The notes beneath the pieces are model-generated. The model was not told the DNA's origin and ran no database searches. It worked only from the letters and a program-made list of their open reading frames with translations. 64,000 bases of DNA from Prevotella sp. (GTDB lineage Bacteria; Bacteroidota; Bacteroidia; Bacteroidales; Bacteroidaceae), in assembly GCA_017442825.1 (NCBI GenBank), contig JAFRYZ010000035.1, positions 1-64,000 of the forward strand, written 5' to 3'. Below are positions 1 to 53,849 of the stretch, piece after piece. How positions within the stretch are numbered: position 1 is the stretch's first letter; each line of letters opens with the position of its first letter. The position numbers were made by a program, and so were the translations under genes.

Positions 1-100
1 CCTTAAGAGGAAGGTTCTCAATACGATAAAGTTTGTACACCTCTTCTTGCAAATGAACACGCTCAATACCTGAACGAAGATAATCCTTACTTGTTTTCAT
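1..100 (-). CDS. Partial gene of unknown function (N-terminus only)
   Basis: An open frame starts at the ATG complement at 98-100 and runs off the window edge, giving 33 residues (MKTSKDYLRSGIERVHL...). I do not recognise the family. The charged, soluble N-terminus has no signal peptide. It is preceded by more than 400 bases without a clear gene but with strong inverted repeats (232-527), which on this strand lie upstream of it. That layout would suit a regulated or replication-type gene of an integrated element, but this is inference only. Confidence 0.45.
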   Translation of the reverse strand, partial: MKTSKDYLRSGIERVHLQEEVYKLYRIENLPLK

Positions 101-231
101 CTTTTTGAATTTTAGGTGTCAACCTTATCTACAAAAAGACAAGGTTCGTTAGTGCTGGTTCTGGAGACTCGTTGGAGACGTTTTGAAGACTCATTAGCGC
201 ACCTTTACTTGAAAATTTTTTCATGAAAAAA

Positions 232-37691: not shown

Positions 37692-37694
37692 TAT

Positions 37695-37977: not shown

Positions 37978-38050
37978 AAAAATATCCATAAAAGAAAAAC
38001 CTTACTTTCTCTTATTTAACTTTATTTTTTTATTCCTGTATGCCTTTATT

Positions 38051-38169
38051 CTGATAGCAACAGAAATAAAAAGTAAACAAAAAGAGAGTCAACAGAAAGT
38101 TAAACTAAGTATTAACCAAAGTCAACCACAACTACAAATAAGATTCAAATTCGTCAACTAAAATCGTTA
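38051..38169 (+). repeat. 119-bp conserved module, copy 1
   Basis: This non-coding block matches 53731-53849 in inverted orientation at about 110 of 119 positions without gaps. It is A-rich on this strand and carries several GTCAAC motifs. In both copies an array of 22-bp units follows within 15-20 bases on the same side. Confidence 0.85.
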
Positions 38170-38189
38170 TGCTGTCTTGAGAACAGATG

Positions 38190-38321
38190 ACCAAAGCTTG
38201 GTATGAAGGCGACCAAAGCTTGGTACGGCGGCTACCAAGCTTTGGTATCTGGGCTACCACGTTGTGGTCACAGAACTACCAAAAAGCGGTATTGGGACTA
38301 CCACAAATCGGTAATCCCACC
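38190..38321 (+). repeat. Array of six 22-bp units with ACCAAAGCTTGGT palindromes
   Basis: Six units of exactly 22 bases each begin with ACCA. Units 1 and 2 carry the perfect palindrome ACCAAAGCTTGGT, unit 3 ACCAAGCTTTGGT, unit 4 ACCACGTTGTGGT, and units 5-6 are progressively degraded. The array follows module copy 1 by 20 bases and ends five bases before the stop of the GT11 gene on the other strand. The 22-base period is about two helical turns, so palindromes would face the same side. Confidence 0.85.
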
Positions 38322-38325
38322 ATCA

Positions 38326-39246
38326 TCAGATAATGTGCCGGAAGAGGTAGTCGAAGTGGTTGAAGGAATCGAAGGTGATGGGTTCGTTGATGTCTATAAG
38401 CCAACAGAGGGGGGTGTCGTGGTACATGGAGGCAACAAGGGTGAAGGTGCTGGGCGGTCCGATGAGATAGTCACACTGGGACAGGAGGCAGAGGTCTTCA
38501 CCTGGATTGCCGTCGGGGAAAGAAAGGGAAGGTGTTTCTATAGACAATGGACCATTGAGGGTTGACAATTGCTGACGGTAATAGTCTTTGTCTAATGTGG
38601 GGTCATTGCCACAGATGTAAATGGCGACGGAAGAATCACCCCTACCCTCTTTGTTAAGGTTTGTCTGTATGAGGTTGAGGAAGTTTTTGATGACTTTCAC
38701 ATACTGTTCGTCGGTGTAGAAGAACTTACCGCCGTTGAAAGTCTTATAGTCGCCACGGCGGATATGAACACCCACACGCAAAACCATATCTCGTCTCTCA
38801 GAGGGGGAAAGAACGGCAACCCCATCCCCTTCGTTTTCTCGTTCTGATTTTGCGAAGCGCTCAGCTACGGAGGTTTTCACTTCTGGCAGGAAATCGAAGA
38901 GTTGAAGGATTTCCGGCTTATATTTCAGGAACAAATCGAAATAGCATACATACCAGCCTTCAGCCATGACGAGAGGGCGGTGGAGCATCACCTGTTCCTG
39001 TTGGTCGGTGGGTGCTCCCTCTTCGTTGAACGTTACGGTGGGGATGAGTTTCAACTTTGCAGCATATTTGGCAAAGGCATAGTTCAAGAAGCGGTGATAA
39101 GGGGTGTGGCAGATATGGAAATACTGATACTTGTAAGCAAAGCGCATAGACATCGTCGTACGATGATGCTCCCTTCCCCATGCATACAGATGTGCATACT
39201 GGAGAATGTTGTTACACATGCGGCCTTTATCGTGGACAAATATCAT
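38326..39246 (-). CDS. GT11-family (alpha-1,2-fucosyltransferase-like) glycosyltransferase
   Basis: 306 residues. The family motif VGVHIRRGDY lies near residue 160, and EDLCLLSQCDYLIGPPSTFTLVASM near 255 matches the GT11 C-terminal motif. It likely adds fucose or a related sugar to a surface glycan. The start overlaps the stop of the ABC transporter gene (ATGA at 39246-39243), so the two are coupled. Three segments look repeat-derived: AERFAKSERENE (about 38841-38866), NLNKEGRGDSS (38637-38661) and QLSTLNGPLSIE (38541-38571). Confidence 0.82.
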   Translation of the reverse strand: MIFVHDKGRMCNNILQYAHLYAWGREHHRTTMSMRFAYKYQYFHICHTPYHRFLNYAFAKYAAKLKLIPTVTFNEEGAPTDQQEQVMLHRPLVMAEGWYVCYFDLFLKYKPEILQLFDFLPEVKTSVAERFAKSERENEGDGVAVLSPSERRDMVLRVGVHIRRGDYKTFNGGKFFYTDEQYVKVIKNFLNLIQTNLNKEGRGDSSVAIYICGNDPTLDKDYYRQQLSTLNGPLSIETPSLSFPDGNPGEDLCLLSQCDYLIGPPSTFTLVASMYHDTPLCWLIDINEPITFDSFNHFDYLFRHII

Positions 39247-41087
39247 ACCTGTTGCATATCATGGAGTTTCTTGAAGAAGCCATCCATTGCCAACAGTTGC
39301 TCATGAGTACCGCGTTCCACGATGCGTCCTTCGTGTAAAACGCAGATTTCATCGGCATTTTTAATGGTTGACAGGCGGTGGGCAATGGCAACAGTAGTGC
39401 GCGTCTTCATCAACCGCTCCAATGCATCCTGTACCAATCGTTCGCTCTCGGTGTCAAGTGCCGATGTAGCCTCATCAAGTATCAATATCGGCGGATTCTT
39501 CAAGATAGCACGTGCAATGCTGACACGCTGACGCTGTCCGCCACTGAGTCGTCCGCCACGATCGCCGATATTGGTCTCGTAGCCGTTTTCAGAAGCGGTA
39601 ATGAAGTCATGGGCATTGGCAATCTTTGCTGCATGTTCAATCTCTTCCTGCGTAGCATTTTCCACTCCAAAGGCGATATTGTTGCGGAACGTGTCGTTGA
39701 AGAGGATGGCCTCCTGGTTGACGTTGCCAATGAGCTGTCGCAAATCGTGGATGCCCAAATCTTTGACGTTGATGCCGTCGATGAGCACTTCACCCTCCTG
39801 CACGTCGTAGTAACGAGGGATGAGATCGACAAGTGTCGATTTTCCGCTACCGCTTTGTCCGACTATGGCGATGGTCTTGCCTTTAGGAATAACGAGGTTG
39901 ATATCCTTCAGCACGTAGTGGAGATCCTTTTCCTTCTTGTAAGCAAAAGAGACATGGCGGAACTCTATGCTCTTCTCAAACGATGTGATAGGTTTCGGAT
40001 GTTCCGGCTCTTTGATATTGTTTTCAGCCATCAGTATCTTATCGACACGCTCCATAGAAGCCAGTCCCTTCGGGATGTTGTAGCCTGCCTTGGAAAATTC
40101 TTTCAGGGGGTTGATGATGCTGTAGAGGATGACCAGATAATAAATAAAGGTGGAACCGCTAATGGTTGCGTTGTTCAACACCAGTACTCCACCAAACCAA
40201 AGGACAACGATAATCATGACCGTGCCGAGGAACTCACTCATGGGATGAGCCAGTTGCTGACGGGTGTTCACCCAAAGAATGTTCTCGCGATATTCGGAGT
40301 TGATACGATCATACTTGTCGTTCATCTTCTTCTCAGCATTGAATGCCTTGATGATGCGCAGTCCACCCAGCGTTTCTTCCACCACGCTCATGGTATCACT
40401 CCACAACGCCTGTGCCTTGACGGAATTCTGTTTCAGCTTGCGTCCGATGAAGCCCATAAACCAGCCCATCAACGGTACGAAGATGATGGTGAAGAGGGTG
40501 AGCTGCCACGAGATAAATACCAGCGTGGTGAAATAGGCAATAATCAGGATGGGATTCTTGAAAAGCATGTCGAGACTCGACATGATGGAATTTTCAATCT
40601 CTTGTACGTCACCACTCATACGAGCGATGATGTCACCCTTGCGCTCTTCTGAGAAGAAGCCTAAGGGCAGATCCGTAATCTTCTGATAAAGTTGGTTACG
40701 GATGTCACGAACAACACCGGTACGAATCGGGATAATTGATGCAGAGGAAAGGAAATAGGCACCCGTCTTCAAGAAAGTGGTAACAGCCAAGAAAAGTCCT
40801 ATCAGCAGCAAGGTTGTCGTCGCACCGAAATCGAGTATCCACCCCTGAACATAATAGTTCATGTTGTTGCTCAGCACATCTTTGATGTTGCCGCTGTCCC
40901 ACGGCATCAGCGACACTTCGCGTAACGACTCCTCGGTCTTAAACAGGATGTTCAAGATTGGAATGAGTGCTGCAAACGAGAAGATGTTCAGCACAGCAGA
41001 CAGGATGTTGAAGACTACCGCCCATACAAGATATTTCTTGTAAGGAGGAATGAAACGCTTCAATACTTGCAAAAACTCTTTCATCAA
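39243..41087 (-). CDS. MsbA-type ABC exporter (fused membrane and ATPase domains)
   Basis: 614 residues. Six membrane helices in residues 1-330 (ABC_membrane type) are followed by the ATPase with Walker A GQSGSGKST near 405, the signature LSGGQRQRVSIARA near 515, Walker B ILILDEATSALD and the H-loop AHRLSTI. Its size and layout fit lipid A-core flippases and related lipid exporters. Coupled to the GT11 gene, it may export a glycolipid, or be the housekeeping MsbA. Confidence 0.92.
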   Translation of the reverse strand: MMKEFLQVLKRFIPPYKKYLVWAVVFNILSAVLNIFSFAALIPILNILFKTEESLREVSLMPWDSGNIKDVLSNNMNYYVQGWILDFGATTTLLLIGLFLAVTTFLKTGAYFLSSASIIPIRTGVVRDIRNQLYQKITDLPLGFFSEERKGDIIARMSGDVQEIENSIMSSLDMLFKNPILIIAYFTTLVFISWQLTLFTIIFVPLMGWFMGFIGRKLKQNSVKAQALWSDTMSVVEETLGGLRIIKAFNAEKKMNDKYDRINSEYRENILWVNTRQQLAHPMSEFLGTVMIIVVLWFGGVLVLNNATISGSTFIYYLVILYSIINPLKEFSKAGYNIPKGLASMERVDKILMAENNIKEPEHPKPITSFEKSIEFRHVSFAYKKEKDLHYVLKDINLVIPKGKTIAIVGQSGSGKSTLVDLIPRYYDVQEGEVLIDGINVKDLGIHDLRQLIGNVNQEAILFNDTFRNNIAFGVENATQEEIEHAAKIANAHDFITASENGYETNIGDRGGRLSGGQRQRVSIARAILKNPPILILDEATSALDTESERLVQDALERLMKTRTTVAIAHRLSTIKNADEICVLHEGRIVERGTHEQLLAMDGFFKKLHDMQQV

Positions 41088-41156
41088 TTATCTATTTTAG
41101 TTTCGCTTATCGCTCAACTTAGGAATGGAAAGGAATTTAACTTCCGAAAAGTTGAG

Positions 41157-42491
41157 TTATCTATTGTCATTTATCACTTCACCCAAGAGGGTGGCACTGG
41201 TAGAACCCGTGATGCGCACACATACGCGTTCACCGATATGGTGGTTGCCTTTGTCGAACACTACCATCTTGTTTTGCTCCGTACGACCGCAGAGCTGCTG
41301 ACGGCTACGTTTGCTGAAGTTCTCTATGAGTACTTCAAACGCCTTGCCCTCGTCTTTCTTGTTTTGTTGTGCAGAGATTTCGGTCTGCAAAGCTATTAAC
41401 TCATTCAGACGACGAATCTTCTCTTCTTCAGGAACATTGTCGGGAAGGTGCTTCGAGGCATAGGTACCAGGTCGTTCACTATACTTGAACATGAAAGCCG
41501 AATCATAGCCCACCTCACGCATCAAAGAAAGGGAAAGCTGGTGATCTTCCTCGGTTTCATCGTGATAACCGACAAAAATATCGGTAGAAAGTCCACAGTC
41601 GGGAATAATGCTCCTGATGGCAGCCACACGGTCCAAATACCACTCACGGGTATATTTGCGGTTCATCAGCTTCAGTATCTTGTTGGAACCAGACTGCACG
41701 GGCAGGTGGATATGTTTACAGACATTCGGCATCTCGGCGATAACACGTAAGGTTTCGTCGCTCATATCTTTGGGATGAGATGTCGTAAAACGAACGCGCA
41801 TCTCAGGCACAGTCTCAGCGACACGACGCAGAAGGTCGGGGAAAGAGTCATGCCAACTGTTGACATTCTGTCCTAACAGCGTCACCTCTTTATAGCCACG
41901 GTCGCGCAGGTCACAACATTCACGCAGGATACTCTCCATGTCTCGTGAACGCTCTCGTCCACGAGTATAGGGAACGATGCAGTAATGACAGAAGTTGTTA
42001 CAACCACGCATAATGCTGACAAAGCCTCCGATATGAGCACCATGCAGACGCTGGGGCACAATGTCGCGGTAGGTCTCCGAGGTAGATAACTCTATGTTGA
42101 TGGCTTTATGACCTATCTCTGCCTGTGCTATCAGGTCGGGCAGAGAGAGGTAGGCGTCAGGACCTGCCACCAAATCACAATGGTGGTTGTTCAACAGGTC
42201 GTCCTTCACACGTTCAGCCATACAGCCCAGAACACCAATGATGAGGGTGGATGGAGTTCCTTCCATTCTCTCCCCTTCCCTCCTCTTCTTGATGGCATAG
42301 AGAGCCTCTAAACGATTGTATATCTTGTTTTCGGCATTCTCACGAACAGAGCACGTATTCAGGAAGACGGCATCAGCCTCATCGACAGACTCACACACAT
42401 CGTAACCCGCCATCTTCATGACCGAAGCGACGACCTCTGAGTCTGCCACATTCATCTGGCAACCGTAAGTCTCTATATAGAGTTTCTTCAT
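41157..42491 (-). CDS. miaB: tRNA-2-methylthio-N6-dimethylallyladenosine synthase
   Basis: 444 residues. The N-terminal domain has three cluster cysteines (YGCQMNVADSE, CSVRENAENK, GCMAERVKD); the radical-SAM domain has RGCNNFCHYCIVPYTRGRERSR near residue 155; a TRAM domain ends the protein. It methylthiolates i6A37 in tRNA. A purine-rich stretch encoding RREGERMEGTPS near residue 72 looks like an insertion relative to the usual spacing before GVLGCMAER. It probably forms an operon with the two upstream lipoprotein genes. Confidence 0.95.
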   Translation of the reverse strand: MKKLYIETYGCQMNVADSEVVASVMKMAGYDVCESVDEADAVFLNTCSVRENAENKIYNRLEALYAIKKRREGERMEGTPSTLIIGVLGCMAERVKDDLLNNHHCDLVAGPDAYLSLPDLIAQAEIGHKAINIELSTSETYRDIVPQRLHGAHIGGFVSIMRGCNNFCHYCIVPYTRGRERSRDMESILRECCDLRDRGYKEVTLLGQNVNSWHDSFPDLLRRVAETVPEMRVRFTTSHPKDMSDETLRVIAEMPNVCKHIHLPVQSGSNKILKLMNRKYTREWYLDRVAAIRSIIPDCGLSTDIFVGYHDETEEDHQLSLSLMREVGYDSAFMFKYSERPGTYASKHLPDNVPEEEKIRRLNELIALQTEISAQQNKKDEGKAFEVLIENFSKRSRQQLCGRTEQNKMVVFDKGNHHIGERVCVRITGSTSATLLGEVINDNR

Positions 42492-42506
42492 CCTCGGTAG
42501 TATCTA

Positions 42507-43328
42507 TTATTGGATTTCTGCAGTAATCGGATGTTTGTTGCCACGCATCGACACCAGGAATGCCTTGGCGGAACCGAATTTCAGGAACATATCCAGACGA
42601 ATGGGAATATGATTGTCGTCGTCAGTGACATAGAAACGAACGATTTCTTTCAGTTTACCATCTTTCTGCTCCAAATAAGAGAGTTCAAGACAACGGTATT
42701 TCCTATCGTTATCAGCCTTAATGGTAGATTTTCCGCGGAACTTCAACATGGCATTCTGTCGGCTGTCGCCATCGACAATAGGGAACTGAACCACATGTCC
42801 CTTTTGCCAGTTGACGGGATTGAAAGAACGGGCACGGAGGAAGATGCTCAACATATCATAGACACAGTCGTTGTAGGTATGCTGCTGCCATGCATGCGTG
42901 CCGTCAGTACGCTGGAAATGCTGCTTGATAAAGGTTTTTCCGCCTGGATAGTTATAGAAAACCTCATCCACGGTGTAGCGCTTACCCTCTTTGGCACCCT
43001 TTCGGAAATACAGTGGAGCAAGATTTGTTGTGGTGTAGCACAGCAGGGTGTCACGCATGACAAACATCTTGTCTGCCCTGCCATTGCCACGAGTTGTCAA
43101 CGAGGCACGGAATGCTTGTTTTCCCTGATAGATACTATTGACGGTGTACATGGTTGCATTTCCTGCTTTCACCCATACAAACTTCCAATTGTAATAAAGG
43201 TTGTAAGTAAGAAACTCACCACCATTGAATGCTGTGTTTCGAAAAGCACATTGAGCCGATGACTGCATGGTTGCTGTCAACAAAACCATCATCAACGAGC
43301 AACGAAAGATAAACCTATACATTTTCAT
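42507..43328 (-). CDS. DUF3108 domain protein, exported
   Basis: 273 residues with a signal peptide (MKMYRFIFRCSLMMVLLTATMQSSA). The core (GEFLTYNLYYNWKFVWVKAGNATMYT...GKQAFRASLTTRGNG...GDSRQNAMLKFRGKSTIK...FYVTDDDNHIPIRLDMFLKFGSAKAFL) is typical of DUF3108, a periplasmic beta-rich family without firm function. It lies 15 bases upstream of miaB. Confidence 0.85.
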   Translation of the reverse strand: MKMYRFIFRCSLMMVLLTATMQSSAQCAFRNTAFNGGEFLTYNLYYNWKFVWVKAGNATMYTVNSIYQGKQAFRASLTTRGNGRADKMFVMRDTLLCYTTTNLAPLYFRKGAKEGKRYTVDEVFYNYPGGKTFIKQHFQRTDGTHAWQQHTYNDCVYDMLSIFLRARSFNPVNWQKGHVVQFPIVDGDSRQNAMLKFRGKSTIKADNDRKYRCLELSYLEQKDGKLKEIVRFYVTDDDNHIPIRLDMFLKFGSAKAFLVSMRGNKHPITAEIQ

Positions 43329-43410
43329 TTCAACTATAAACTTAAAACTTTAATACCAAAATTATAACAGAAAACCGTTTATTAGATAGACGAAACGTCA
43401 CCGCCACCGT

Positions 43411-45372
43411 TTAACGAGGCGCATATTCTATCCCCAGGCTGCGTGCACGCTCAATATTGCGTCCTTTGGTAGTCTGTTTCTTCTGCTTCTGTTGCTTTAT
43501 CAAAGCTGCGGGCTTTTGCTGTGCCAGCGGTTTTGCCGTCGGATTCCACGTTTGTTGAACATCCCATTTCGCCTTACACTCGAATGATTCGGGATAATAA
43601 TAAACCGCTTCTGCCTGTTTCTGCTCAGCATAGTTACCAGTGTCCCAGATACCGTTGTCGTTCTCATCGACAAACAGCCGCGCGTAGTAGATTCCCGGCT
43701 TCACATAGTACAAGGTAGCCACCGCGTTTTGTGTTTCCACCTCTTTCTCAACAGCATCTTTATTGTTCAGTAGCTGGACGACAACATGCTTGTCTTCCAT
43801 ACCTGTCAGCGTGAAGATGACCGTACTGAATTCGTCTAGCGTCTTCACCTTGAAACCTTGTTTATAGGCTTTCGAAGCCTTACCATAGATATCTACGAAA
43901 GCAGCAGAATCTATCTCAAGACTATATTCAGCACCCGGCTGCCATTCTCCTATCAGCTGCCACACACGCGGATGACCTGTCTGTTCACTAAGTAGGTATC
44001 GGGCAGGTTGCCAAAGCGTATCGACTTTGGTATAGAGATGTATGGCTGCCGTATCAGCCTTTTGTATCGGAGATTTCATCTTAATCAACAGATTCTGGTC
44101 AGGGGCAATGGATGAAGGCACATAATAATCGGGTTCCAACGCTACGCTAGGCATCACCGTCTCAAACGACTCTCCACGTTTTTTCTTACGTTCCTGTTGC
44201 TTGCTCCATTTCTCTGCCGCTTCTTTCATTTGCTTCAGGCGCTTGGCATAAGGCTGTCGCGAAATGAGTTCCAAAGTATCAGTATTCTGATGCAAGACAC
44301 CCAACGTGTCTGTAGCAAGATATTGCATTTCTAATTGGAGTGTGTCCTGATTGACCAAAGCCGTGTCGCGCAACCAGTAGGTAATGGTGTCTTGATTGAC
44401 AGAAGGTTCAACGACAAAAGCGTTCGTTTCATCGAAGTTCAAACCTTTTATCTTCGGCAGTTCAGCATTGCCATAGCTGAAAAAGACCATAAAGTTGTCT
44501 GCCTGCTGACGGGTGGCTTTTAAAAAAGCACGGTCGGTTTGTTTCTCTTGAAAAGCCGTCAGCGTAATGTCATCGGGCAGAAAATGGGTGTACCCCACCC
44601 GATTGATGTTTAAGATATGCAGCGAATCGCGCCAGAGGGTATCTTGTCTGATGTCTGGCTTGCAAGTCGGCACAACAATGTCATGATTGAAAGCCAACTT
44701 CTCTGCTTTCTGCGTAAACCGATAATCTCCGTCCATATCTTGCAAGGCAAACACACGGTAACGACCTTCTGATACACCTTTGATCACAAAATGACCTTTC
44801 TCATCGGTAGATGAAACGCGAAGCATCGGCACTTTCAGCAAAAGCGTATCCGTTGCCTTAAACGTTTCTGAATCGGTATCGGAAACGGAACCGATATCAT
44901 ACAGTCCCACATGAATGCCTTTTATGGGTTCCAGGTTCTCGGCATTCAGCACATGGCCTGCTATCTCCAACGTATCAATAGCATTACCCGTTGAAAAAGT
45001 ATAGGTGAAGTTTCCTAATGGATTTCCTTCATTATTATCGGAAATAGCATCGGAAAAATCTATCGTATAAGTTGTATTAGGCTTCAGGTCGTCTTGAAGT
45101 TTGACCACGATATTTCTACCTTGTTCTTTGATTTCGGGCTGTTCCAGTTGAGGTGGCGACACGACGACTTTCTCCGACGGATTGTCCAACTTGACATATT
45201 CGTCGAAATAGATGGTGATTTTCTTGCTGTTCACATTCGTTGCACCGTTGGCAGGAAAAGCCCCCAACACCTTCGGCGGATCTTCGTCATACCACCCACC
45301 ATCTGGTGCACCCATTTTGGCACACGATGCCAAAAGCATGATAAAACCTATGAAACCTATCGTCTTCTTCAT
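43411..45372 (-). CDS. Ig-like domain lipoprotein
   Basis: 653 residues with a lipobox (MKKTIGFIGFIMLLASC). The N-terminal part is a bacterial Ig-like (Big_5/SbsA type) domain (PPKVLGAFPANGATNVNSKKITIYFDEYVKLDNP), followed by carboxypeptidase-regulatory-like segments (IAGHVLNAENLEPIKGIHVGLYD, VFALQDMDGDYRFT) and a C-terminal YYARLFVDENDNGIWDTG motif. This is a common Bacteroidetes surface or periplasmic lipoprotein of unknown function. The tail is rich in Lys and Gln. Confidence 0.83.
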   Translation of the reverse strand: MKKTIGFIGFIMLLASCAKMGAPDGGWYDEDPPKVLGAFPANGATNVNSKKITIYFDEYVKLDNPSEKVVVSPPQLEQPEIKEQGRNIVVKLQDDLKPNTTYTIDFSDAISDNNEGNPLGNFTYTFSTGNAIDTLEIAGHVLNAENLEPIKGIHVGLYDIGSVSDTDSETFKATDTLLLKVPMLRVSSTDEKGHFVIKGVSEGRYRVFALQDMDGDYRFTQKAEKLAFNHDIVVPTCKPDIRQDTLWRDSLHILNINRVGYTHFLPDDITLTAFQEKQTDRAFLKATRQQADNFMVFFSYGNAELPKIKGLNFDETNAFVVEPSVNQDTITYWLRDTALVNQDTLQLEMQYLATDTLGVLHQNTDTLELISRQPYAKRLKQMKEAAEKWSKQQERKKKRGESFETVMPSVALEPDYYVPSSIAPDQNLLIKMKSPIQKADTAAIHLYTKVDTLWQPARYLLSEQTGHPRVWQLIGEWQPGAEYSLEIDSAAFVDIYGKASKAYKQGFKVKTLDEFSTVIFTLTGMEDKHVVVQLLNNKDAVEKEVETQNAVATLYYVKPGIYYARLFVDENDNGIWDTGNYAEQKQAEAVYYYPESFECKAKWDVQQTWNPTAKPLAQQKPAALIKQQKQKKQTTKGRNIERARSLGIEYAPR

Positions 45373-45440
45373 TTTAACTCCTCTTTAACTCCCCTTCTCA
45401 CTCCCCTTTAACTCCTTTTTAACTCCCTTTTAACTCCCCT
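45373..45440. repeat. TTTAACTCCC tandem repeats
   Basis: Degenerate 10-12 base units (TTAACTCCCC) fill the gap between the Ig-like lipoprotein start and the GH3 gene end, the same family as at 10346-10520 and 11488-11640. They run into the last codons of the GH3 gene (NGKGS). Confidence 0.8.
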
Positions 45441-46950
45441 TCCCATTCATCGCCAACATCTCTTCAATGTTCTTACGACTGTTCGACAAACGAGGAACCT
45501 TATGTTGTCCGCCCAGTTTTCCTTTCGATTTCAACCAGTCGTTGAAAAGATGTGGTCGTGCCTTGATAATCTCCAACTGCTGCAGCGTCACGTCATGGAA
45601 GCGCTTGGCTTCATAGTCGCTGTTGATTTCCTGCAACTTGTTATCGAGAATCAGAGCAAACTCCTTCATATCTTCCGGTTCTTTAGCAAACTCTATGAGC
45701 CACTGATGGCGACATTTCGCCTTTTCGTTCATATATATCGGAGCTGCCGTATATTCCAATATCACGGCACCCGTCTGTTTGCAAGTTGCTTCCAATGCTT
45801 TTTCTGCGTTGTCCTGAATCAGTTCTTCGCCGAAAGCATTGATAAAATATTTGGTTCTGCCAGTGATGACGAACTTATAAGGGTTCTTCGAGGTAAAGCG
45901 TATGGTGTCACCAATCTGATAGCGCCACAGTCCGCAAGAAGTGGAAATCAACATGACATAGTTCTTTCCCACTTCCACTCCACTGAGTGGTACCACCGTC
46001 GGGTGTTCACTTTCAAACTCGTCCATCGGAATGAATTCATAGAACACACCATAGTCGAGCATCAGCAACATGGCAGAGTCGGCAGGATCATTCTGAATGC
46101 CGAAGAAGCCTTCGCTGGCATTATAGGTTTCCATATAGTGCATGTCCGACTTGGTAATAAGCTGCTCGTACTGTTTCCGATAGGGAGTGAAAGCAATACC
46201 GCCGTGGAAGAATACTTCCAGGTTGGGCCATACCTCCTCCAGATGCTGCTTGCCAGAGAGTTCCATCACGCGCACCAAAACAGACAACATCCACGAAGGT
46301 ACACCCGAGAGGTTGGTCACGTTTTTGTTTAACGTTTCTCTTGCTATGCGGTCGCGCTTCAACTCAAAGTCTGACAATAAAGCCGTCTGCTTCTTCGGAA
46401 CGCGAACCAGATTTGCCAGAGGATTGATGTTTTCTATCAAGATGGCACTCAGGTCGCCCACCAGCGAGCCTGCCATATTATAATTCGGAGAATGACTGCC
46501 GCCTAGTATCAAACCCTTGCCGTCGAGCATTCTACTTAGGGGATAGTTGGCAAGATAGAATGCCACCACATCTGTTCCTCCTTGATAATGTATGCGTTGC
46601 AATCCTTCTGCCGAAACAGGAATAAACTTCGACTTGTCGTTCGTCGTACCAGATGACTTTGCAAACCATTTCACCATTCCTGGCCACAGCACATTTCGCT
46701 CACCGTGGCGCATGCGGTCGATGTCGTCTTTCAGTTCCTCGTAAGTATTAACAGGAACGTTTTGTGCAAAGTCCTCATAAGTTCTGATGGTATTAAAAAG
46801 ATGATTTCTGCCATATTCCGTTTCTTTTCCACGCTCCACCAGATAGGAAAACACCTCGTTTTGCATTTGCAATGCATCCTTCTCATGGCGTTCCAATTCT
46901 ACCTGACGTCGATGGAAATATAAGCGATTGGCTATCTTTGTCAAACTCAT
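45430..46950 (-). CDS. GH3-family acyl-adenylating protein
   Basis: 506 residues. The P-loop-like AKSSGTTNDKSKFIPVS near residue 90, the later YNASEGFFG and LISTSCGLWRYQIGDTIRF, and the C-terminal ITGRTKYFINAFGEEL match GH3 proteins of the ANL adenylating superfamily. Plant members conjugate amino acids to hormones; the bacterial substrates are unknown. It lies six bases downstream of the RNase III gene stop region on the same strand. Confidence 0.88.
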   Translation of the reverse strand: MSLTKIANRLYFHRRQVELERHEKDALQMQNEVFSYLVERGKETEYGRNHLFNTIRTYEDFAQNVPVNTYEELKDDIDRMRHGERNVLWPGMVKWFAKSSGTTNDKSKFIPVSAEGLQRIHYQGGTDVVAFYLANYPLSRMLDGKGLILGGSHSPNYNMAGSLVGDLSAILIENINPLANLVRVPKKQTALLSDFELKRDRIARETLNKNVTNLSGVPSWMLSVLVRVMELSGKQHLEEVWPNLEVFFHGGIAFTPYRKQYEQLITKSDMHYMETYNASEGFFGIQNDPADSAMLLMLDYGVFYEFIPMDEFESEHPTVVPLSGVEVGKNYVMLISTSCGLWRYQIGDTIRFTSKNPYKFVITGRTKYFINAFGEELIQDNAEKALEATCKQTGAVILEYTAAPIYMNEKAKCRHQWLIEFAKEPEDMKEFALILDNKLQEINSDYEAKRFHDVTLQQLEIIKARPHLFNDWLKSKGKLGGQHKVPRLSNSRKNIEEMLAMNGKGS

Positions 46951-46956
46951 CGTTTT

Positions 46957-47829
46957 CTATGGATTAGTTATGTTGTTCGAATTCACTTCTTCCAGCTGTT
47001 CTGCCTCCTCGTTGAAAGTTTCTTCCTTCATTTCCTCTTGAACTTGAAATGCTTCTTTCTCTGCTTTAGCAGCAAACACGCTATCGATGAATTCGGGTGA
47101 TTTCTTCAGTAATTTCAATGTTTCTCTGGCAGCAAGCTGTTGAGCCTCCTTTTTGGAGAAACCCTCTCCTTCGCTACCAGCCACCTCTTCCAACAGCACC
47201 TGAAAGCGGAAAACCGGACTGTTGTTCTCGTCTGTTTTCTCGTCAATCAGTTGAAAATCTACACTGATGCGGTTCTTCTGTCCCCACTCTATCAGCTTCG
47301 ACTTGAAATTGACCTCTTTATAAGCTACCTTGTCCAGGTTTATCAACTCACCGAGAATTCGTTTTTCAACGAACTTCGTACAGGCTTTATAGCCCTGATC
47401 CAAGTAAATGGCTCCTATCATTGCCTCAAAAGCATTGCCAGCCAAATAGTTGTTGTGCGAACCGTTAGACCTGCCATTGGTCATGATGAGCCTGTTGATA
47501 CCCATTTCTTTTGACAGGCGGTTCAAAGTGGCACGCTGAACAATTTTCGAACGGGTGTTGGTCAGAAATCCCTCACGCTTCCCTGGAAAATGTTTGTAAA
47601 CAATACCACCTACGATAGCCCCCAGCACAGCATCACCCAAAAACTCCAACCTTTCGTTGTTGATGGGCTTACCCTTCTCGTTGCGATGCGCCACACTCTT
47701 GTGCATCAGTGCCAACTTGTAGTACCTGATGTCATTAGGGTAAAAGCCGAGGATTTCGTATAAAGACAAATAAAGCTCCTTCTCCTTGCGGAAAGGGAGC
47801 TTTATTCTGTTGATGATATTATTCAGCAT
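46957..47829 (-). CDS. rnc: Ribonuclease III
   Basis: 290 residues. The RNase III signature NNERLEFLGDAVLGAIV lies near residue 58 (magnesium-binding Glu/Asp), with the second acidic cluster in AFEAMIGAIYLDQGY near 130. A double-stranded RNA-binding domain occupies about 173-245 (KSKLIEWGQKNRISVDFQL...KKEAQQLAARETLKLL). The acidic C-terminal tail of about 45 residues is longer than in many rnc products. The start overlaps the fabF stop by 11 bases. Confidence 0.95.
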   Translation of the reverse strand: MLNNIINRIKLPFRKEKELYLSLYEILGFYPNDIRYYKLALMHKSVAHRNEKGKPINNERLEFLGDAVLGAIVGGIVYKHFPGKREGFLTNTRSKIVQRATLNRLSKEMGINRLIMTNGRSNGSHNNYLAGNAFEAMIGAIYLDQGYKACTKFVEKRILGELINLDKVAYKEVNFKSKLIEWGQKNRISVDFQLIDEKTDENNSPVFRFQVLLEEVAGSEGEGFSKKEAQQLAARETLKLLKKSPEFIDSVFAAKAEKEAFQVQEEMKEETFNEEAEQLEEVNSNNITNP

Positions 47830-49081
47830 ATTTTTTGAATATCACACAGGCGTTATGACCACCAAATCCGAACGTGTTACTCATGGCAGCACGTACCTCA
47901 CGCTTCTGTGCTTTGTTGAAGGTGAAGTTGAGATTGTAGTCAATTTCTGGATCCTTATCATCCTCGTCGTGGTTGATGGTAGGCGGTACAATGTCGTTCT
48001 GAACAGACAAGACAGCTACCATAGCCTCAACTGCACCAGCTGCACCGAGCAGGTGACCCGTCATAGACTTCGTAGAAGAGATATTCAGCTTGTAAGCAGC
48101 ATCTCCGAACACATCCTTGATGGCTTTAGCTTCAGAAATATCACCCACGTGTGTCGATGTTCCGTGTACGTTGATGTAGTCGATATCCTCTGGTTTCAAA
48201 CCTGCATCATCCAACGCGTTCTGCATCACGAGCTTTGCTCCAAGACCTTCGGGGTGGCTGGCAGTGATGTGATAAGCGTCAGCACTCTCACCATCACCTA
48301 CCATCTCGGCATAGATCTTAGCGCCACGTGCCTTGGCATGTTCCAACTCTTCCAGAATCAGACAGCCTGCACCTTCAGCCATCACGAAGCCATCGCGGCT
48401 TGCACTGAACGGACGGCTTGCCTTCTCAGGCTCGTCGTTGCGGGTAGAGAGTGCCTTCATGGCATTGAATCCTCCGATACCACACATACAGATTGCACTT
48501 TCTGCACCACCTGCAACAATCACGTTTGCCTTGCCCAAGCGAATCAGGTTAAAGGCATCAGCCAGAGCATTGCTTGAAGAAGCACATGCACTTGTCGTCG
48601 TATAGTTAGGTCCGTGGAAGCCGAAGTGGATAGAGATGTGACCCGAAGCAATATCGGCAATCATCTTAGGAATGAAGAACGGTGAAAACTTAGGACCGTC
48701 TTCCATGTGCTGACCATAATAGACCACCTCGTCCTGGAAAGTCTTGATACCACCAATACCTACGCCATAGACGACGCCGATGCGGTTCTTGTCTTCCTTT
48801 TCCAAGTCAAGTCCTGAATCTTTCACGCCCTGAATGGCAGAAACCATAGCCAACTGAGTGTAGCGGTCCAGTTTTCTTGATTCTTTACGGTCAATATATT
48901 CATTGATGTCAAGTCCTTTTACCTCACAAGCGAAAGTTGTTTTACAAAGGGAAGCATCAAATTGAGTCACAGGTGCAGCACCACTTTTGCCGGCAAGCAG
49001 GTTTTTCCAAGTCTCCTCGGGTGAATTTCCTACAGGCGTAACGGCACCAAGACCTGTTACTACTACTCTTTTTAATTCCAT
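47819..49081 (-). CDS. fabF: Beta-ketoacyl-ACP synthase II
   Basis: 420 residues. The catalytic Cys is in TTSACASSSNAL near residue 163, with the two histidines in NVHGTSTHVGD and SMTGHLLGAAGAVEA. It condenses malonyl-ACP with acyl-ACP in fatty acid elongation. It lies downstream of acpP and overlaps rnc, the common acpP-fabF-rnc order. Confidence 0.97.
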   Translation of the reverse strand: MELKRVVVTGLGAVTPVGNSPEETWKNLLAGKSGAAPVTQFDASLCKTTFACEVKGLDINEYIDRKESRKLDRYTQLAMVSAIQGVKDSGLDLEKEDKNRIGVVYGVGIGGIKTFQDEVVYYGQHMEDGPKFSPFFIPKMIADIASGHISIHFGFHGPNYTTTSACASSSNALADAFNLIRLGKANVIVAGGAESAICMCGIGGFNAMKALSTRNDEPEKASRPFSASRDGFVMAEGAGCLILEELEHAKARGAKIYAEMVGDGESADAYHITASHPEGLGAKLVMQNALDDAGLKPEDIDYINVHGTSTHVGDISEAKAIKDVFGDAAYKLNISSTKSMTGHLLGAAGAVEAMVAVLSVQNDIVPPTINHDEDDKDPEIDYNLNFTFNKAQKREVRAAMSNTFGFGGHNACVIFKKYAE

Positions 49082-49194
49082 AAAAACGTTTTATTTATAG
49101 CGTCTTTTTAACATAGATTTAGCGTTTAGCGTAAGCTGTCGTCTTAGAAACGAACTCCACGCTAAACGCCAAACGCTGTACGCAAAACCAATAA

Positions 49195-49431
49195 TTATTT
49201 TGCGTTTTCCTCGATATAAGCGATAGCATCGCCAACGGTAGCAATCTTCTCAGCCTTATCGTCTGGAATAGAGATACCAAATTCTTTCTCAAACTCCATG
49301 ATGAGCTCTACAGTGTCCAGAGAATCTGCACCAAGGTCGTTAGTGAAGCTTGCCTCAGGCTTTACTTCTGCATCGTCAACACCCAGTTTCTCTACGATAA
49401 TAGCTTTTACTTTGCTTTCAATTTCTGACAT
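49195..49431 (-). CDS. acpP: Acyl carrier protein
   Basis: 78 residues from [20 protein letters not shown], the usual ACP length. The phosphopantetheine serine is in [12 protein letters not shown] near residue 37. A longer upstream frame to 49629 encodes no family sequence and crosses the probable promoter (TTCCTTTG near 49485), so the short form is chosen. It precedes fabF. Confidence 0.97.
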
Positions 49432-49630
49432 AGTTGTAAGTTTTAAAATGTTAAATAATTGATTTCTTTTCAAAATTTTCGGGTGCAAAGGAACAAACTT
49501 AAATCGAAACGTGCAAATATTTCGAAGAAAAAAACACCTTTCTTTGCACATACACCCCCCTATTGTGCAAAAAAGAAGCCGTTTTCTCAAAAAAAGGCTA
49601 CTTATTGTTTGCCCTTTTTCAATTTTCAAT

Positions 49631-49638
49631 TATATTTG
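49631..49638 (+). promoter_or_regulatory. TATATTTG -7 box for the DUF4254 gene
   Basis: A TANNTTTG match 48 bases before the ATG at 49686, divergent from the acpP promoter region. Confidence 0.5.
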
Positions 49639-49685
49639 CACACAACTTCGCTAACTTTGAAAGTACTCAATAAAAACATAAAGAT

Positions 49686-50294
49686 ATGTCATTTACACAA
49701 CATTGTAACGAAATTTTCAACCAAGCTATCCGCGACTATCACGTGAAAGATAACGTTGATACGCCCATCAATAATCCCTATGACGAGGGTACCATCGAGA
49801 ACCGTCTCTACCTGAAGTGTTGGATAGACACCGTTCAGTGGCATTTCGAAGACATCATCCGCGACCCGAACATCGATCCGGCAGAAGCCCTCATACTGAA
49901 ACGCCGTATCGACCGTTCCAATCAAGATCGTACCGACCTGGTTGAGCAGATAGATTCCTATTTCCGTCAAGTATATAGTGAGGTGAAGCCGTTGCCCGAA
50001 GCTACTATCAATACCGAGAGTCCGGCTTGGGCTGTTGACCGTCTCTCTATCCTCGCTCTAAAAATTTGGCACATGCGCGAACAGGCAGAACGCCAAGATG
50101 CTTCGGCTGAACACCGACAGAAATGTCAGCAGAAACTTGATGTGCTGCTCGAACAGCAGGTTGATCTCGGCACCGCCATCAACCAGTTGCTCGACGACAT
50201 TCAAGCTGGTCGCAAATACATGAAGGTGTATCGGCAGATGAAAATGTACAACGACCCTGCCACCAATCCCATTCTTTATCAAAAGAAGGGTTGA
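49686..50294 (+). CDS. DUF4254 domain protein
   Basis: 202 residues, mostly helical, no signal peptide. The segments FTQHCNEIFNQAIRDYH, IENRLYLKCWIDTVQWHFEDIIRDP, RRIDRSNQDRTDLVE and AVDRLSILALKIWHM are typical of DUF4254, a Bacteroidetes family usually encoded beside glycosyltransferases, as here (GT9 follows). Function is unknown. Confidence 0.85.
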   Translation: MSFTQHCNEIFNQAIRDYHVKDNVDTPINNPYDEGTIENRLYLKCWIDTVQWHFEDIIRDPNIDPAEALILKRRIDRSNQDRTDLVEQIDSYFRQVYSEVKPLPEATINTESPAWAVDRLSILALKIWHMREQAERQDASAEHRQKCQQKLDVLLEQQVDLGTAINQLLDDIQAGRKYMKVYRQMKMYNDPATNPILYQKKG

Positions 50295-50368
50295 AAGATG
50301 AGAGTTGAGGGATGAGAGTTGAAAGATGAGAGTTCTTGCTTTGGCAAGCGCTTTGCGATTAGAGAGAG
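50295..50368. repeat. Dispersed repeats between DUF4254 and GT9 genes
   Basis: GATGAGAGTTGAGGGATGAGAGTTGAAAG tandem units followed by the TTGCTTTGGCAAGCGCTTTGCGATTAGAG block, which ends right at the ATG of the GT9 gene. Confidence 0.8.
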
Positions 50369-51454
50369 ATGAAGACAGAACACTTGCTTGTTATCCGCTT
50401 CTCCGCTATGGGAGATGTTGCTATGATGGTTCCCGTCATAGCTTCTTTGGCGAGACAGTATCCGAACATGAGGATAACGGTATTAAGCCGTCCTTTCGCG
50501 CGTACATTATTTAATAATATAGCACCTAATGTCAGCTTTATGGGTGCCGAGGTCAGGAAAGAGTACAAGGGAGTCCACGGACTCAATGCCCTTTACCGGC
50601 GGTTACAAGCCAAACACTTCACAGCCGTTGCCGACCTACACGATGTGCTGCGCACCAAATATCTGCGCATGCGGTTCAACGTCGATGGCAAACGGGTGGA
50701 ACACATCAACAAGCATCGCAAGGAGAAACGACAGTTGTGTGCTGAGAAAAATAAGGTTCTCCAACAACTGCCTACCTCTTTCGACAACTATGCCGACGTT
50801 TTCAGTCGCTTGGGCTATCCCGTCACGTTGAACTTCACTTCCATCTTCCATGAAGGACGGGGAGACCTTTCATCACTCCCCATCACCATCCCCGAAAAGA
50901 AAGGGGACGAACGGTGGATAGGTATTGCGCCCTTTGCTGCTCATCATGGTAAAATCTACCCCATCGACAAAATGGACTTCATCATCCGTACGTTGGCAAC
51001 TCAACACCCCGACTGGCGCATTTTCCTTTTTGGAGGAGGCAACCAGGAAGAAGATACCACCTTGAAGACGTGGGATGCTGAACTTTCACCATGTTCCTTC
51101 ATCTCACGACAGCTGAAAGGACTCGACCAAGAACTCATCGTCATGAGCCACCTCGACCTTATGCTCTCTATGGACTCAGCCAACATGCACCTCGCCTCCC
51201 TCGTCGGCATTCCCGTCATCAGCATCTGGGGAGCCACACACCCCTATGCCGGCTTCATGGGCTTTGGACAAAACCCCGACAACGCCATACAGACCGACTT
51301 GCCCTGCCGCCCCTGTAGCATCTACGGCAAAAAACCTTGCATACGACAAGACTACGCCTGTCTGCACGACATCAAACCAGAAACCATCCTTGAAAAGATT
51401 CAATTCATAATTTATAATTCTTCGACAAGCGAAGCGACTTCGTCGATTACATAA
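50369..51454 (+). CDS. Glycosyltransferase family 9 (heptosyltransferase-like)
   Basis: 361 residues. The N-terminus LLVIRFSAMGDVAMMVPVIASLARQYP and the C-terminal SMDSANMHLASLVGIPVISIWGATHPYAGF match ADP-heptose:LPS heptosyltransferases. It probably builds the LPS inner core. The last 17 or so residues (QFIIYNSSTSEATSSIT) are encoded by dispersed-repeat sequence (AATTCATAATTTATAATTC and CGACAAGCGAAGCGAC), so the original C-terminus has been extended or replaced. Confidence 0.88.
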   Translation: MKTEHLLVIRFSAMGDVAMMVPVIASLARQYPNMRITVLSRPFARTLFNNIAPNVSFMGAEVRKEYKGVHGLNALYRRLQAKHFTAVADLHDVLRTKYLRMRFNVDGKRVEHINKHRKEKRQLCAEKNKVLQQLPTSFDNYADVFSRLGYPVTLNFTSIFHEGRGDLSSLPITIPEKKGDERWIGIAPFAAHHGKIYPIDKMDFIIRTLATQHPDWRIFLFGGGNQEEDTTLKTWDAELSPCSFISRQLKGLDQELIVMSHLDLMLSMDSANMHLASLVGIPVISIWGATHPYAGFMGFGQNPDNAIQTDLPCRPCSIYGKKPCIRQDYACLHDIKPETILEKIQFIIYNSSTSEATSSIT

Positions 51455-51474
51455 ACCATTAAAACAAAAGCATT

Positions 51475-51636
51475 ATGAAAAAGTACATTTGCGACACTTG
51501 CGGGTACGTTTACGATCCCGAAGTAGGAGATCCTGACAACGGTATCGAACCCGGAACAGCATTCGAAGACCTGCCCGAAGATTGGGTATGCCCACTCTGC
51601 GGCGTCGGCAAGGAAGACTTCAGCGTAGAAGAGTAA
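51475..51636 (+). CDS. Rubredoxin
   Basis: 53 residues, the standard size. The four iron-binding cysteines are in [12 protein letters not shown] near residues 6-9 and [12 protein letters not shown] near 39-42. It is a small electron carrier, probably linked to oxidative stress defence or anaerobic metabolism. It is followed at once by a good terminator. Confidence 0.95.
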
Positions 51637-51659
51637 CAAAAACCATCCTAAACATCATC

Positions 51660-51697
51660 CCCGAACAGCGATAATAACTGTTCGGGAATGATTGTTT
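51660..51697 (+). terminator. Rho-independent terminator after rubredoxin
   Basis: CCCGAACAG at 51660-51668 pairs with CTGTTCGGG at 51678-51686 (9 bp, 9-base loop), followed by a T-run at 51693-51697. Confidence 0.85.
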
Positions 51698-51762
51698 TTG
51701 TATGAAAGGAGTTTACTTAATCACGACCTTGAGCTTTGCTCGAACTCGTTTCCGTTCTTCAC

Positions 51763-53094
51763 TCACTTCATCACGACCTTTTTGCCGTTTTTGATATAAA
51801 TGCCCTTCGACAATCCGCTATTCGAAACTTTGCGGCCGTCCAGCGAGTAGATGTTACTACTCTCCTCGCCCTTCGCAGAGGAGTCAGAGGTGAGGCTTTC
51901 AATACCTGCCGTCTCATCCATCTCGATAATATTCGTAAACTCTTTCCAACCATCTGCATTCTGATATTTTTCCTTTGTCCCATAAGGAACATACAAGGGG
52001 ATGGATTTAGGAACAATATACCAACAATTAGATGTTGTAGCAAAAGGCTCTTGAATAAATGATGTAATGGAGGTAAGACCTGAGCAAATAGCGAACGCCC
52101 AATCACCGATGGTCGTCACGCTGTTAGGGATAGTGACGGAGGTCATACCGCTGCAATTATAGAACGCATAACCGCCGATGCTCGTCACGCTGTTGGGGAT
52201 GGTAACGGAGGTCAGACCGCTGCAATCACGGAACGCAGAACTGCCTATGCTCGTAACACTGTTGGGGATGGTGACGGAAGCAAGAGCTTTGCAACCATTG
52301 AACGCACCATCGCCGATGTTCTTCACGCTGTTGCCGATGTTAACGGAAGCAAGAGCTTTGCAATAAGCGAACGCACCATCGATGCTCGTCACGCTGTTGC
52401 CAATGGTGACGGAGGTAAGACCACTGCACTCCTCGAAAACATACTTGCCAATGCTCGTCACGTTATCAGGGATGCTAACGGAAGTCAGACCACTGCAGAA
52501 CCCGAACGCTTCTTGGCCGATACTCGTTAAGTTTTCGTTGAATGTGATAGAGGTGAGACCAGTGCAACCATAGAACGCACGAAAACCGATGCTCGTCACA
52601 TTATCGGGAATGGTGAATGAGGTCAAACCGATGCAATCCTTGAACATACGATCGCCGATGCTCGTCACGCTGTTGGGGATAGTAACGGAGGTAAGACTAC
52701 TGCACTCCTCGAAAACATACTTGCCGATGCTCGTCACGCTGGCGGGGATTTCAATCGACGTCAGACCTGTACCATTGAAGGCCCATGCGCCGATTTTCGT
52801 CACGCTGTTGGGGATAGTAACGGAGGTAAGACCGCTGCAATAACGGAAAGCATCATCATCGATGCTCGTTACGGCGTAGGTCTTTCCATTATATATGACA
52901 GACGTAGGAATTGTAACATCCCCTGTATATTCATCCTTAACGGAAGAAGGATATGATCCTTGGTAAGTCACGGCGACAGTATAAGGTTCTGTCGATGAGG
53001 TGATGTTGTAATAGATTCCACCGACTTCGAAGTAATGGGCAAACGACAACAAGGCTGTCATGAGGCAAATTGATAGTGATAAAATTCTTTTCAT
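51763..53094 (-). CDS. BspA-like leucine-rich-repeat surface protein
   Basis: 443 residues with a signal peptide (MKRILSLSICLMTALLSFA). From about residue 70 to 340 there are around twelve repeats of about 23 residues with the pattern LTSVTIPNSVTSIGxxAFxxCSG, the LRR_5/BspA type. The C-terminal region (NIYSLDGRKVSNSGL...GIYIKNGKKVVMK) resembles the short sorting-like tails of secreted Prevotella proteins. BspA proteins mediate adhesion. The DNA shows matching 69-bp repeats. A long leader with a large hairpin precedes it. Confidence 0.92.
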   Translation of the reverse strand: MKRILSLSICLMTALLSFAHYFEVGGIYYNITSSTEPYTVAVTYQGSYPSSVKDEYTGDVTIPTSVIYNGKTYAVTSIDDDAFRYCSGLTSVTIPNSVTKIGAWAFNGTGLTSIEIPASVTSIGKYVFEECSSLTSVTIPNSVTSIGDRMFKDCIGLTSFTIPDNVTSIGFRAFYGCTGLTSITFNENLTSIGQEAFGFCSGLTSVSIPDNVTSIGKYVFEECSGLTSVTIGNSVTSIDGAFAYCKALASVNIGNSVKNIGDGAFNGCKALASVTIPNSVTSIGSSAFRDCSGLTSVTIPNSVTSIGGYAFYNCSGMTSVTIPNSVTTIGDWAFAICSGLTSITSFIQEPFATTSNCWYIVPKSIPLYVPYGTKEKYQNADGWKEFTNIIEMDETAGIESLTSDSSAKGEESSNIYSLDGRKVSNSGLSKGIYIKNGKKVVMK

Positions 53095-53184
53095 GTTGTT
53101 TTTGGTTTTAAGTTAATAATCAAAATAGTCCAAAAGCTATTATTGAGAGAGACAAAAATAAAACGTGGACTAAAACTTCGTCTA

Positions 53185-53311
53185 CGTCTCCTGCGGTATC
53201 GCCAAACACCTCACGACCATATTACGAGTAAAAGCCCACGCCTTGCGACGTGAGCATCCTGACTTTACTCTTGGTCGTCTCTTTTAAATTTGGCGAATTT
53301 CAGGAGACAAG
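53185..53311 (-). ncRNA. Large multi-stem hairpin in the bspA-like leader
   Basis: On the minus strand GTCTCCTG pairs with CAGGAGAC (8 bp, outermost), CGCCAAA with TTTGGCG (7 bp), ACGACCA with TGGTCGT (7 bp), GAGTAAAG with CTTTTACTC (imperfect) and CACG with CGTG at the tip. A possible promoter box TATTTTTG lies at 53427-53420, giving a leader of about 320 nt. The layout (8 bp, small internal loop, 7 bp, AAAGAG on the 5' side) parallels the leader hairpin at 1995-2111, although the stem sequences differ. Confidence 0.5.
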
Positions 53312-53514
53312 ATTCAAGCGGACGCTTCTTATCTTAATGTCTTGTTGTTCTATCCTATCCCATAGGCTTCACAATTATTTAATGGTTTAACATTTCGATA
53401 TATAAATGCTATCTGTTTGCAAAAATAGGGAATATCTTTTAAACGACAAAATAATGTGCGCTGAATTTCAAACAAGCCCTTCGGGCGATTGAAACGATTC
53501 AACGGATTTAATTC

Positions 53515-53580
53515 AGAATTCTTGCGCCGCTTCGCGATTACACAATTGACAATTCTTGTCCCGGCAAACGCTAAGCGATT
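53515..53580. repeat. Dispersed repeat fragments
   Basis: Pieces of the AATTCTTGCGCCGCTTCGCGATTA and TTGACAATTCTTG...CAAACGCTAAGCGATT families between the bspA leader and the 22-bp array. Confidence 0.65.
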
Positions 53581-53613
53581 TGACTATAAATAAACTCTTC
53601 GGGTTATGATTAT

Positions 53614-53715
53614 GGCAGTACGACATCAGTACGAAGCGTTCGTACTGGTAGTTTTAAGTCTTCGAACTAGCAGTTTTAATATCTCGTACTGACAGTTCGG
53701 AGCGTTCGTACTGGT
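53614..53715 (-). repeat. Array of 22-bp units with AGTACGAA..TTCGTACT palindromes
   Basis: Read on the minus strand from 53715, four full 22-base units and a partial fifth follow (units begin ACC/GTC/GCT/ACC and end ACT). The fourth contains the palindrome AGTACGAACGCTTCGTACT and the first a near-copy. Phase and period match the array at 38190-38321, but the core sequence differs. It begins 15 bases after module copy 2. Confidence 0.8.
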
Positions 53716-53730
53716 ACGTACTGTGTAGTT

Positions 53731-53849
53731 TAACGATTTTAGTTGACTACTTTGAGTCTTATTTGTAGTTGTGGTTGACTTGGGTTAATACTTAGTTTTA
53801 CTTTCTATTGACTCTCTTTTGGTTTACTTTTAATTTCAGTTGCTATCAG
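53731..53849 (-). repeat. 119-bp conserved module, copy 2
   Basis: The reverse complement of this block matches 38051-38169 at about 110 of 119 positions without gaps. It lies about 85 bases left of the first DnaA box of the candidate origin. Confidence 0.85.

Follow-up and report, generated by a model that had tools for sequence, protein, structure and literature searches.

A block that occurs twice in a 64,000-nucleotide stretch of a Prevotella sp. genome (assembly GCA_017442825.1, contig JAFRYZ010000035.1; the whole stretch is referred to below as the window) is the right end of an insertion sequence (IS) of the IS3 family of Bacteroidales, and each copy lies beside an array of 22-bp palindromic units. 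What is new here is the one-sided, phase-locked meeting of the right end of this IS with palindromic arrays of diverse sequence. We propose that the arrays are an independent repeat and that the IS enters at an array's edge, its right end facing the units and in register with their dyad axes; we assign this reading a probability of roughly 0.7. The block itself is an ordinary kind of thing, an IS end, and the interest lies in the arrays and in their phase-locked meeting with it.

The right end of an IS3-family insertion sequence

The two copies of the block, at 38051-38169 (plus strand) and 53731-53849 (minus strand), are identical at 110/119 positions without gaps, in agreement with an earlier interpretation made from the DNA letters alone (the sequence-only reading), which had given about 110/119. 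The 119-bp module that it described is a real match, but the conserved sequence is longer: copy 2 extends to 53724 (53724..53849) and ends in an intact tip, AACTACA, while copy 1 (38051..38169) lacks these final 7 bases. The same interpretation found no named family that would fit, which was wrong for the block. In the single-contig genome G369, two copies (L050 and L051) continue upstream into OrfB (303 aa) and then OrfA (128 aa), with OrfA ahead of OrfB. Because complete copies extend in this way, both window copies are left-truncated right ends.

The complete IS of G369 is 1529 bp long and has TG..CA ends and 3-bp duplications (ACT/ACT and AAT/AAT), all directly visible. A third complete copy (L368) is flanked by GTT/GTT; the fourth is L040 (in G111). 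TG..CA ends are present in 4/4 complete copies and a 3-bp target duplication in 3/4, and the terminal inverted repeat is imperfect. IS3-family elements generate target duplications of 3-5 bp. OrfB matches the IS3 transposase model NF033516 (transpos_IS3) with 240 bits (cut-off 160, E 4e-71) and carries integrase core (rve) domains (Pfam PF00665, E 4.6e-20; PF13683, E 3.7e-21), and OrfA matches NF033516 weakly (E 5.7e-5). An A7G run upstream of the OrfA stop might allow frameshifting. The rve-bearing OrfB, the two-ORF (open reading frame) layout with a short OrfA, and the TG..CA ends with a short duplication are all as in the IS3 family. The IS may already bear a name in ISfinder.

The genome of the window (G000; 2.31 Mb in 69 contigs, 79% complete) contains the block in 11 places by BLAST, copy 1 among them, and the core pattern adds one on contig C5. 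One copy (L045) retains part of OrfB. Left ends of the IS were found at 115-141 of the window, on contig C45 and on contig C11. The first belongs to a further copy on the minus strand (1..141) that is cut by the contig start, position 1 of the window being base 1 of contig C63; what remains is the left terminal sequence at 115-141 plus OrfA codons 1 to 33, with the start codon at 98-100. Reading the loci of this genome one by one gave nine left-truncated copies and one right-truncated copy. Loss of the left part in many of these copies leaves the solo module of the sequence-only reading. Four more right ends run into contig ends, as expected of unresolved IS copies; most insertions are visible from one end only, because draft assemblies break at the IS. 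A 6140-bp contig of another genome (L091, G352 contig C35) has inward-facing right-end arrays or flanks at both ends. We also considered a miniature inverted-repeat transposable element (MITE) with a second left end, as the start points of both window copies and of L047 agree to within one base, yet no matching 3-bp duplication was found in L007 or L047.

The end of the block (GTCAACTAAAATCGTTAAACTAC, up to 3 mismatches) was detected in 55/398 genomes of the genus, and a reversed control pattern gave 1 match. Among the matches listed for the right-end pattern are Prevotella, Leyella stercorea, Hallella multisaccharivorax, Segatella copri, Xylanibacter ruminicola, Mediterranea, Bacteroides, Phocaeicola, Parabacteroides faecis and others. 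The right-end loci read from the genus search comprise 30 returned and 60 requested stretches, including five more from the window's own genome, and cover a part of all places.

One-sided meeting in a fixed register

Downstream of right ends, a lag-22 array was found at 93/167 loci and an array at lag 21-23 at 105/167 (lag 21, n = 6; lag 23, n = 8; no other lag from 14 to 35 above 2). The check proposed by the sequence-only reading, for the module in related genomes with arrays behind the matches, did not refute it. The upstream sides had a lag-22 array in 1/111 cases and the left flanks of IS left ends in 1/49 (L199), so it is the right end of the IS that faces the array. In the genome-contig subset, among the matches listed, the upstream count was 0/47. 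Upstream lags of 32 and 33 (8 and 3 loci) are read as the spacing of GTCAAC boxes inside the IS end.

Three kinds of row were dropped from the pooled right-end count: loci with a flank shorter than 150 bp on the side in question, downstream or upstream; loci whose first 100 bp downstream (or, for the upstream side, final 120 bp) had already been counted; and, where two core matches began fewer than 40 bp apart, the second of the pair. A further right-end scan provided at least 116 stretches, all of them in the pooled 167-locus analysis and 80 of them behind a second set of 52 loci described below.

Array dyads lie at 7 to <11 bp (mod 11) from the IS end in 80/93 arrays (R 0.73, Rayleigh p ~2e-22, for loci that are not independent), and this register holds although the array sequences differ. 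With one locus per genome and a dyad score of at least 0.55, R was 0.90 (15 genomes, p ~5e-6), and without the dyad-score filter it was 0.75 (20 genomes, p ~1e-5). The second set, 52 loci that were read once the phase was already known, contributed 33 arrays with R 0.84 and a mean of 8.6, as compared with 8.8-8.9 earlier; this set comes partly from genomes already sampled and is new in loci rather than in genomes. In the window, by simple arithmetic, the first dyad axis of array 1 lies ~19 bp from the position of the lost IS end, or about 8 mod 11, and the best dyad phase of array 2 is 20.0 mod 22 from the IS end, about 9 mod 11. The IS tip is itself a palindrome, with an axis ~14.5 bp inside the end (arithmetically 7.5 mod 11), which is nearly the array register.

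Some individual loci illustrate the junctions. An identical array meets two different IS junctions ~14 bp apart in L005 and L008, and the two insertions of G369 are in paralogous repeats at positions about one unit apart. The insertion at L051 of G369 splits a palindrome (GGTGAAAT..TTTCACC), yet 48/49 tested left flanks have no lag-22 array. Left flanks with units of the family GTGTCACGATCCTGCCTCAGTT were seen at L199, L196 and L168 (G329), of which L199 is the only left flank that passes the lag-22 threshold. Among 12 matches to distant IS3 relatives, seven loci were examined (OrfB identity 27-45%), and a lag-22 array was nearby in 1/7.

The 22-bp arrays as a separate repeat class

The sequence-only reading had described 22-bp palindromic arrays beside both blocks, and this was confirmed. 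Array 1 (38190..38321) consists of six palindromic units with cores ACCAAAGCTTGGT to ACCACAAATCGGT, which start at 38190, 38212, 38234, 38256, 38278 and 38300, exactly 22 bp apart. Array 2 (53614..53723) has about five units with the core AGTACGAACGCTTCGTACT, present as described at 53628-53646, and reaches directly up to the IS end.

Such arrays are a separate, mostly intergenic repeat class that is independent of the IS. Across 464 kb of the genome to which the window belongs (the window plus a 400-kb sample avoiding the listed module loci), lag 22 stood out beyond chance with 11 arrays; every other lag between 14 and 35 had 0-3. Nine of the 11 were in the sample, among them L141, which keeps 18 bp of the IS tip, and L140, which lies inside an ORF. 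Stretches in which a shorter period reached at least 50% were dropped from the scans, and the G078 stretches (~1 kb each) were left out. The single-contig genomes G016 and G024, without an IS core match, have 9 and 4 lag-22 arrays per 200 kb, respectively, and one array at one other lag in each. G026 has 7 lag-22 arrays in 40 kb, with no IS core match and no OrfB match at E 0.001. Small samples (23-40 kb each) were scanned from other genomes of the genus, with one lag-22 array in each of G003 and G027 and none in G004, G008, G009, G019 and G034. By these counts, some genomes of the genus carry the class at high density, and small samples of others hold few such arrays or none. Ten genomes of other families of the order (345 kb) yielded 1 lag-22 array, 3 lag-23 arrays and 5 at lags 15, 27 and 30.

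Module and array had been suggested to form a single defined genetic element. This suggestion has to be abandoned, because the module is the end of an IS and the arrays stand alone, as in G016, G024 and G026. In G369, a longer dispersed repeat surrounds the array: a query of 2 kb returned 66 matches, namely 2 complete IS and 64 repeat pieces without the IS, so that IS-free paralogues are directly seen in this genome. At L040 (G111, 1-106), sequence from past the array recurs in inverted form as the left flank of the IS, and the array repeat at this locus is for that reason itself a long inverted repeat. Two nearby right ends on opposite strands at L087 (G348, ~956 minus and ~2005 plus) have arrays with the shared ending TAACGTGAGTTCGACGTAAGA, a hint that the far end of the array repeat is defined. 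At L035, L060 and L061 (G232), the first palindromic array is followed by a second 22-bp tandem array whose unit differs (type CGGGGCCTCCGTTGTACCTTGA).

Array cores are specific to the genome. One core type is common to the 12 arrays of G016, while G024 and G026 show more than one, and in some genomes 23-bp or 21-bp arrays replace the 22-bp ones. The expectation that every locus would have its own core was correct only in part: several loci of one genome share a core family.

Compensatory changes keep the dyad symmetry of the arrays. In 90 arrays (49 beside the IS), differences between units at an arm base were compensated by the partner base in 837/2741 cases (0.305). Permutations, which leave the relatedness of units in place, gave 0.185 (s.d. 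0.011, largest 0.210 of 200), and a slid axis gave 0.16-0.21. The dyad score exceeded the 95% point of a column-shuffled null in only 47/90 arrays, and not every array is therefore clearly palindromic.

Outside module loci, 34 arrays were mapped in six genomes; 32 were intergenic, one was coding and one was at an edge, in DNA that is 85% coding. A bias to the 3' ends of genes had been suggested by loci of the window's own genome, and it did not hold up: 18 arrays were in tandem, 10 in convergent and 4 in divergent gaps, compared with 129, 48 and 42 gaps of these types. Rfam at the gathering threshold gave no match in six own-genome loci. The units are contiguous 22-mers without unique spacers, which speaks against a CRISPR (clustered regularly interspaced short palindromic repeats) array; no search for cas genes was made.

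As for the surroundings, IS copy 1 and array 1 sit between two minus-strand genes (36825-39246), one with DUF5672 (PF18922; ORF 36825-37730) and one with a sub-threshold Glyco_transf_11 match (PF01531; ORF 38326-39246), and array 1 ends 5 bp from the stop of the latter. IS copy 2 adjoins a cluster of DnaA-box-like TTATNCACA matches at 53947-54325, upstream of a NadA gene (PF02445). This cluster holds 6 of the 9 exact matches in the window, where 2.0 were expected by shuffling, and it fits the candidate oriC that the sequence-only reading had placed near one block copy. A BspA-type leucine-rich-repeat protein gene (LRR_5) lies at 51763-53094, with a 69-bp coding tandem repeat at 52069-52873. 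Tandem repeats with a period of 7 bp and its multiples (for example AATTGTC) at 21316-21471, 24565-24657, 55478-55530 and elsewhere form a separate short-repeat class.

Proposed targeting of phased dyads, its rivals and known systems

In the explanation that we favor, the arrays would exist first. The IS transposase, or a host protein coating the array, would recognize dyads that resemble the one in the IS tip and recur at regular spacing, and would thereby steer the IS to the edge of the array with phase and orientation fixed. We infer that the phase locking arises at insertion, because the transposase (or a putative array-bound host protein) would read regularly phased dyads in the layout of the palindromic tip of the IS itself. 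On our best reading, the IS targets phased dyad symmetry rather than a fixed sequence.

Several observations weigh against targeting. Of the 93 arrays, 13 are out of register, and 62/167 right-end loci have no array at lag 21-23 by the threshold used. L368 has a clean 3-bp duplication yet no passing array, with two palindromes 22 bp apart visible by eye ~40 bp further on, and L040, one of the four complete copies, has no 3-bp duplication. IS-free counterparts of the occupied repeat come from G369 alone, are paralogues within that genome, and have looser phases of ~6 and 9.5 mod 11. The preference for left-side truncation has no explanation in the model. Finally, units 1-6 match the IS tip slightly better than shuffled tips (~6.0-6.5 vs 5.5-5.9 of 22).

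This last point leads to the main rival, which we consider unlikely, that the array grows by accretion from the right end of the IS. Successive insertions or slippage would leave 22-bp palindromic footprints of the tip, giving both register and one-sidedness without targeting. The tip axis and the array axes do share a register within ~1 bp, by the arithmetic given above, and a second tip copy directly follows the first in 8/167 loci, but these copies fit nested insertion into an old tip equally well. Accretion also predicts tip-like units beside the IS. Among 87 arrays, the nearest unit matched the tip at 6.5 of 22 positions (5.9 for shuffled tips), the next five at ~6.0-6.3 (5.5-5.7), and the seventh and eighth at 5.8 (5.7 and 5.9), a slight excess without a clear gradient; the repeat-generating element that the sequence-only reading had offered as one option is not supported by these data. 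Dense arrays in G026, where neither the core nor an OrfB relative was detected at the threshold given above, and the IS-free copies of the array repeat in G369 argue against accretion as well.

The arrays could also act as RNA, with tandem hairpins in untranslated regions stabilizing or terminating transcripts, in places that the IS merely tolerates. Preservation of the dyads by compensatory change and the intergenic position of 32/34 arrays are in line with this, but 4/32 arrays lie between divergent genes, the mix of contexts is near background, and an RNA role would leave insertion into DNA in helical phase unexplained, so that we regard it as quite improbable.

Slightly less probable still are palindromes of the REP (repetitive extragenic palindromic) or BIME (bacterial interspersed mosaic element) kind spread by a RAYT (REP-associated Y1 transposase), with the IS as just another REP-targeting IS: the arrays are indeed mostly intergenic, palindromic and in genome-specific families, and PF01797 was found in 5/13 genomes tested (array-rich G016 with 3 matches, G027, G004, G009 and G010), but not in the array-bearing G000 (only 79% complete), G003, G024, G026 and G369, and a strict 22-bp tandem layout with changing cores is not known as a REP pattern.

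Returning to targeting of phased dyads, the arrays may be either a binding array for a dimeric protein or a hairpin-RNA array, both being candidates. In a more specific and doubtful version, the arrays would be docking tracks for a putative dimeric DNA-binding protein that binds every second helical turn, with a sequence preference that is replaced between species and a spacing that stays fixed. The IS would then follow the arrays through sequence turnover because it reads dyad geometry or the bound protein, not the sequence. If targeting is correct, an IS that selects its sites by periodic dyad symmetry, with helical phase and orientation fixed and sequence immaterial, would show an uncommon mode of target choice and make an accessible system for tests. 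As a repeat class, the IS-marked arrays combine a constant 22-bp period with sequences specific to the genome; they are dense in several gut and rumen Prevotella and relatives, and the IS gives a handle on their function.

A literature search, with many subscription papers outside its reach, returned no recognizable description of such arrays in Prevotella or Bacteroidetes. Among known transposons, Tn7 has one defined end that faces a recognized target and uses a dedicated sequence-specific target protein. The present IS works like Tn7 in turning one defined end towards its target, without being a member of that group, and its 1529 bp show OrfA and OrfB only.

The BrickBuilt MITE of Porphyromonas gingivalis, as described in the accessible part of PMC4596501, resembles the present case in having a leader beside a tandem array of similar period (23 nt) in intergenic regions of Bacteroidales. 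All BrickBuilt copies share a single 23-nt repeat, with a tail and IS5-like inverted repeats, whereas in the present case the leader is the end of an IS3-family element and the unit changes between loci and genomes at a constant period, so that these arrays are not BrickBuilt copies.

REP and BIME sequences with their RAYT share with the arrays the intergenic position and the genome-specific families of palindromes; the tandem 22-bp lattice of the arrays is not known from them, and the absence of PF01797 from five array-bearing genomes, despite three matches in G016, does not fit membership. REPs are also treated in PMC3733652, and PMC5771137 was cited in this comparison as well.

The nearest precedents are IS1397, ISKpn1 and ISPsy8, which according to the accessible text of PMC1525189 are IS3-family elements that enter REP or palindromic units; REP targeting is reported there for five IS families including IS3. 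The same text attributes target choice to the transposase for IS1397 and ISKpn1, and places ISPsy8 at the symmetry axis of the REP hairpin, with REP fragments on both sides. The present IS is like these three in belonging to the IS3 family and in having an intergenic palindromic repeat as its proposed target. They are described as inserting inside a REP of defined sequence, whereas the IS studied here lies at the edge of an array, in one orientation and at a fixed phase, next to many unrelated cores.

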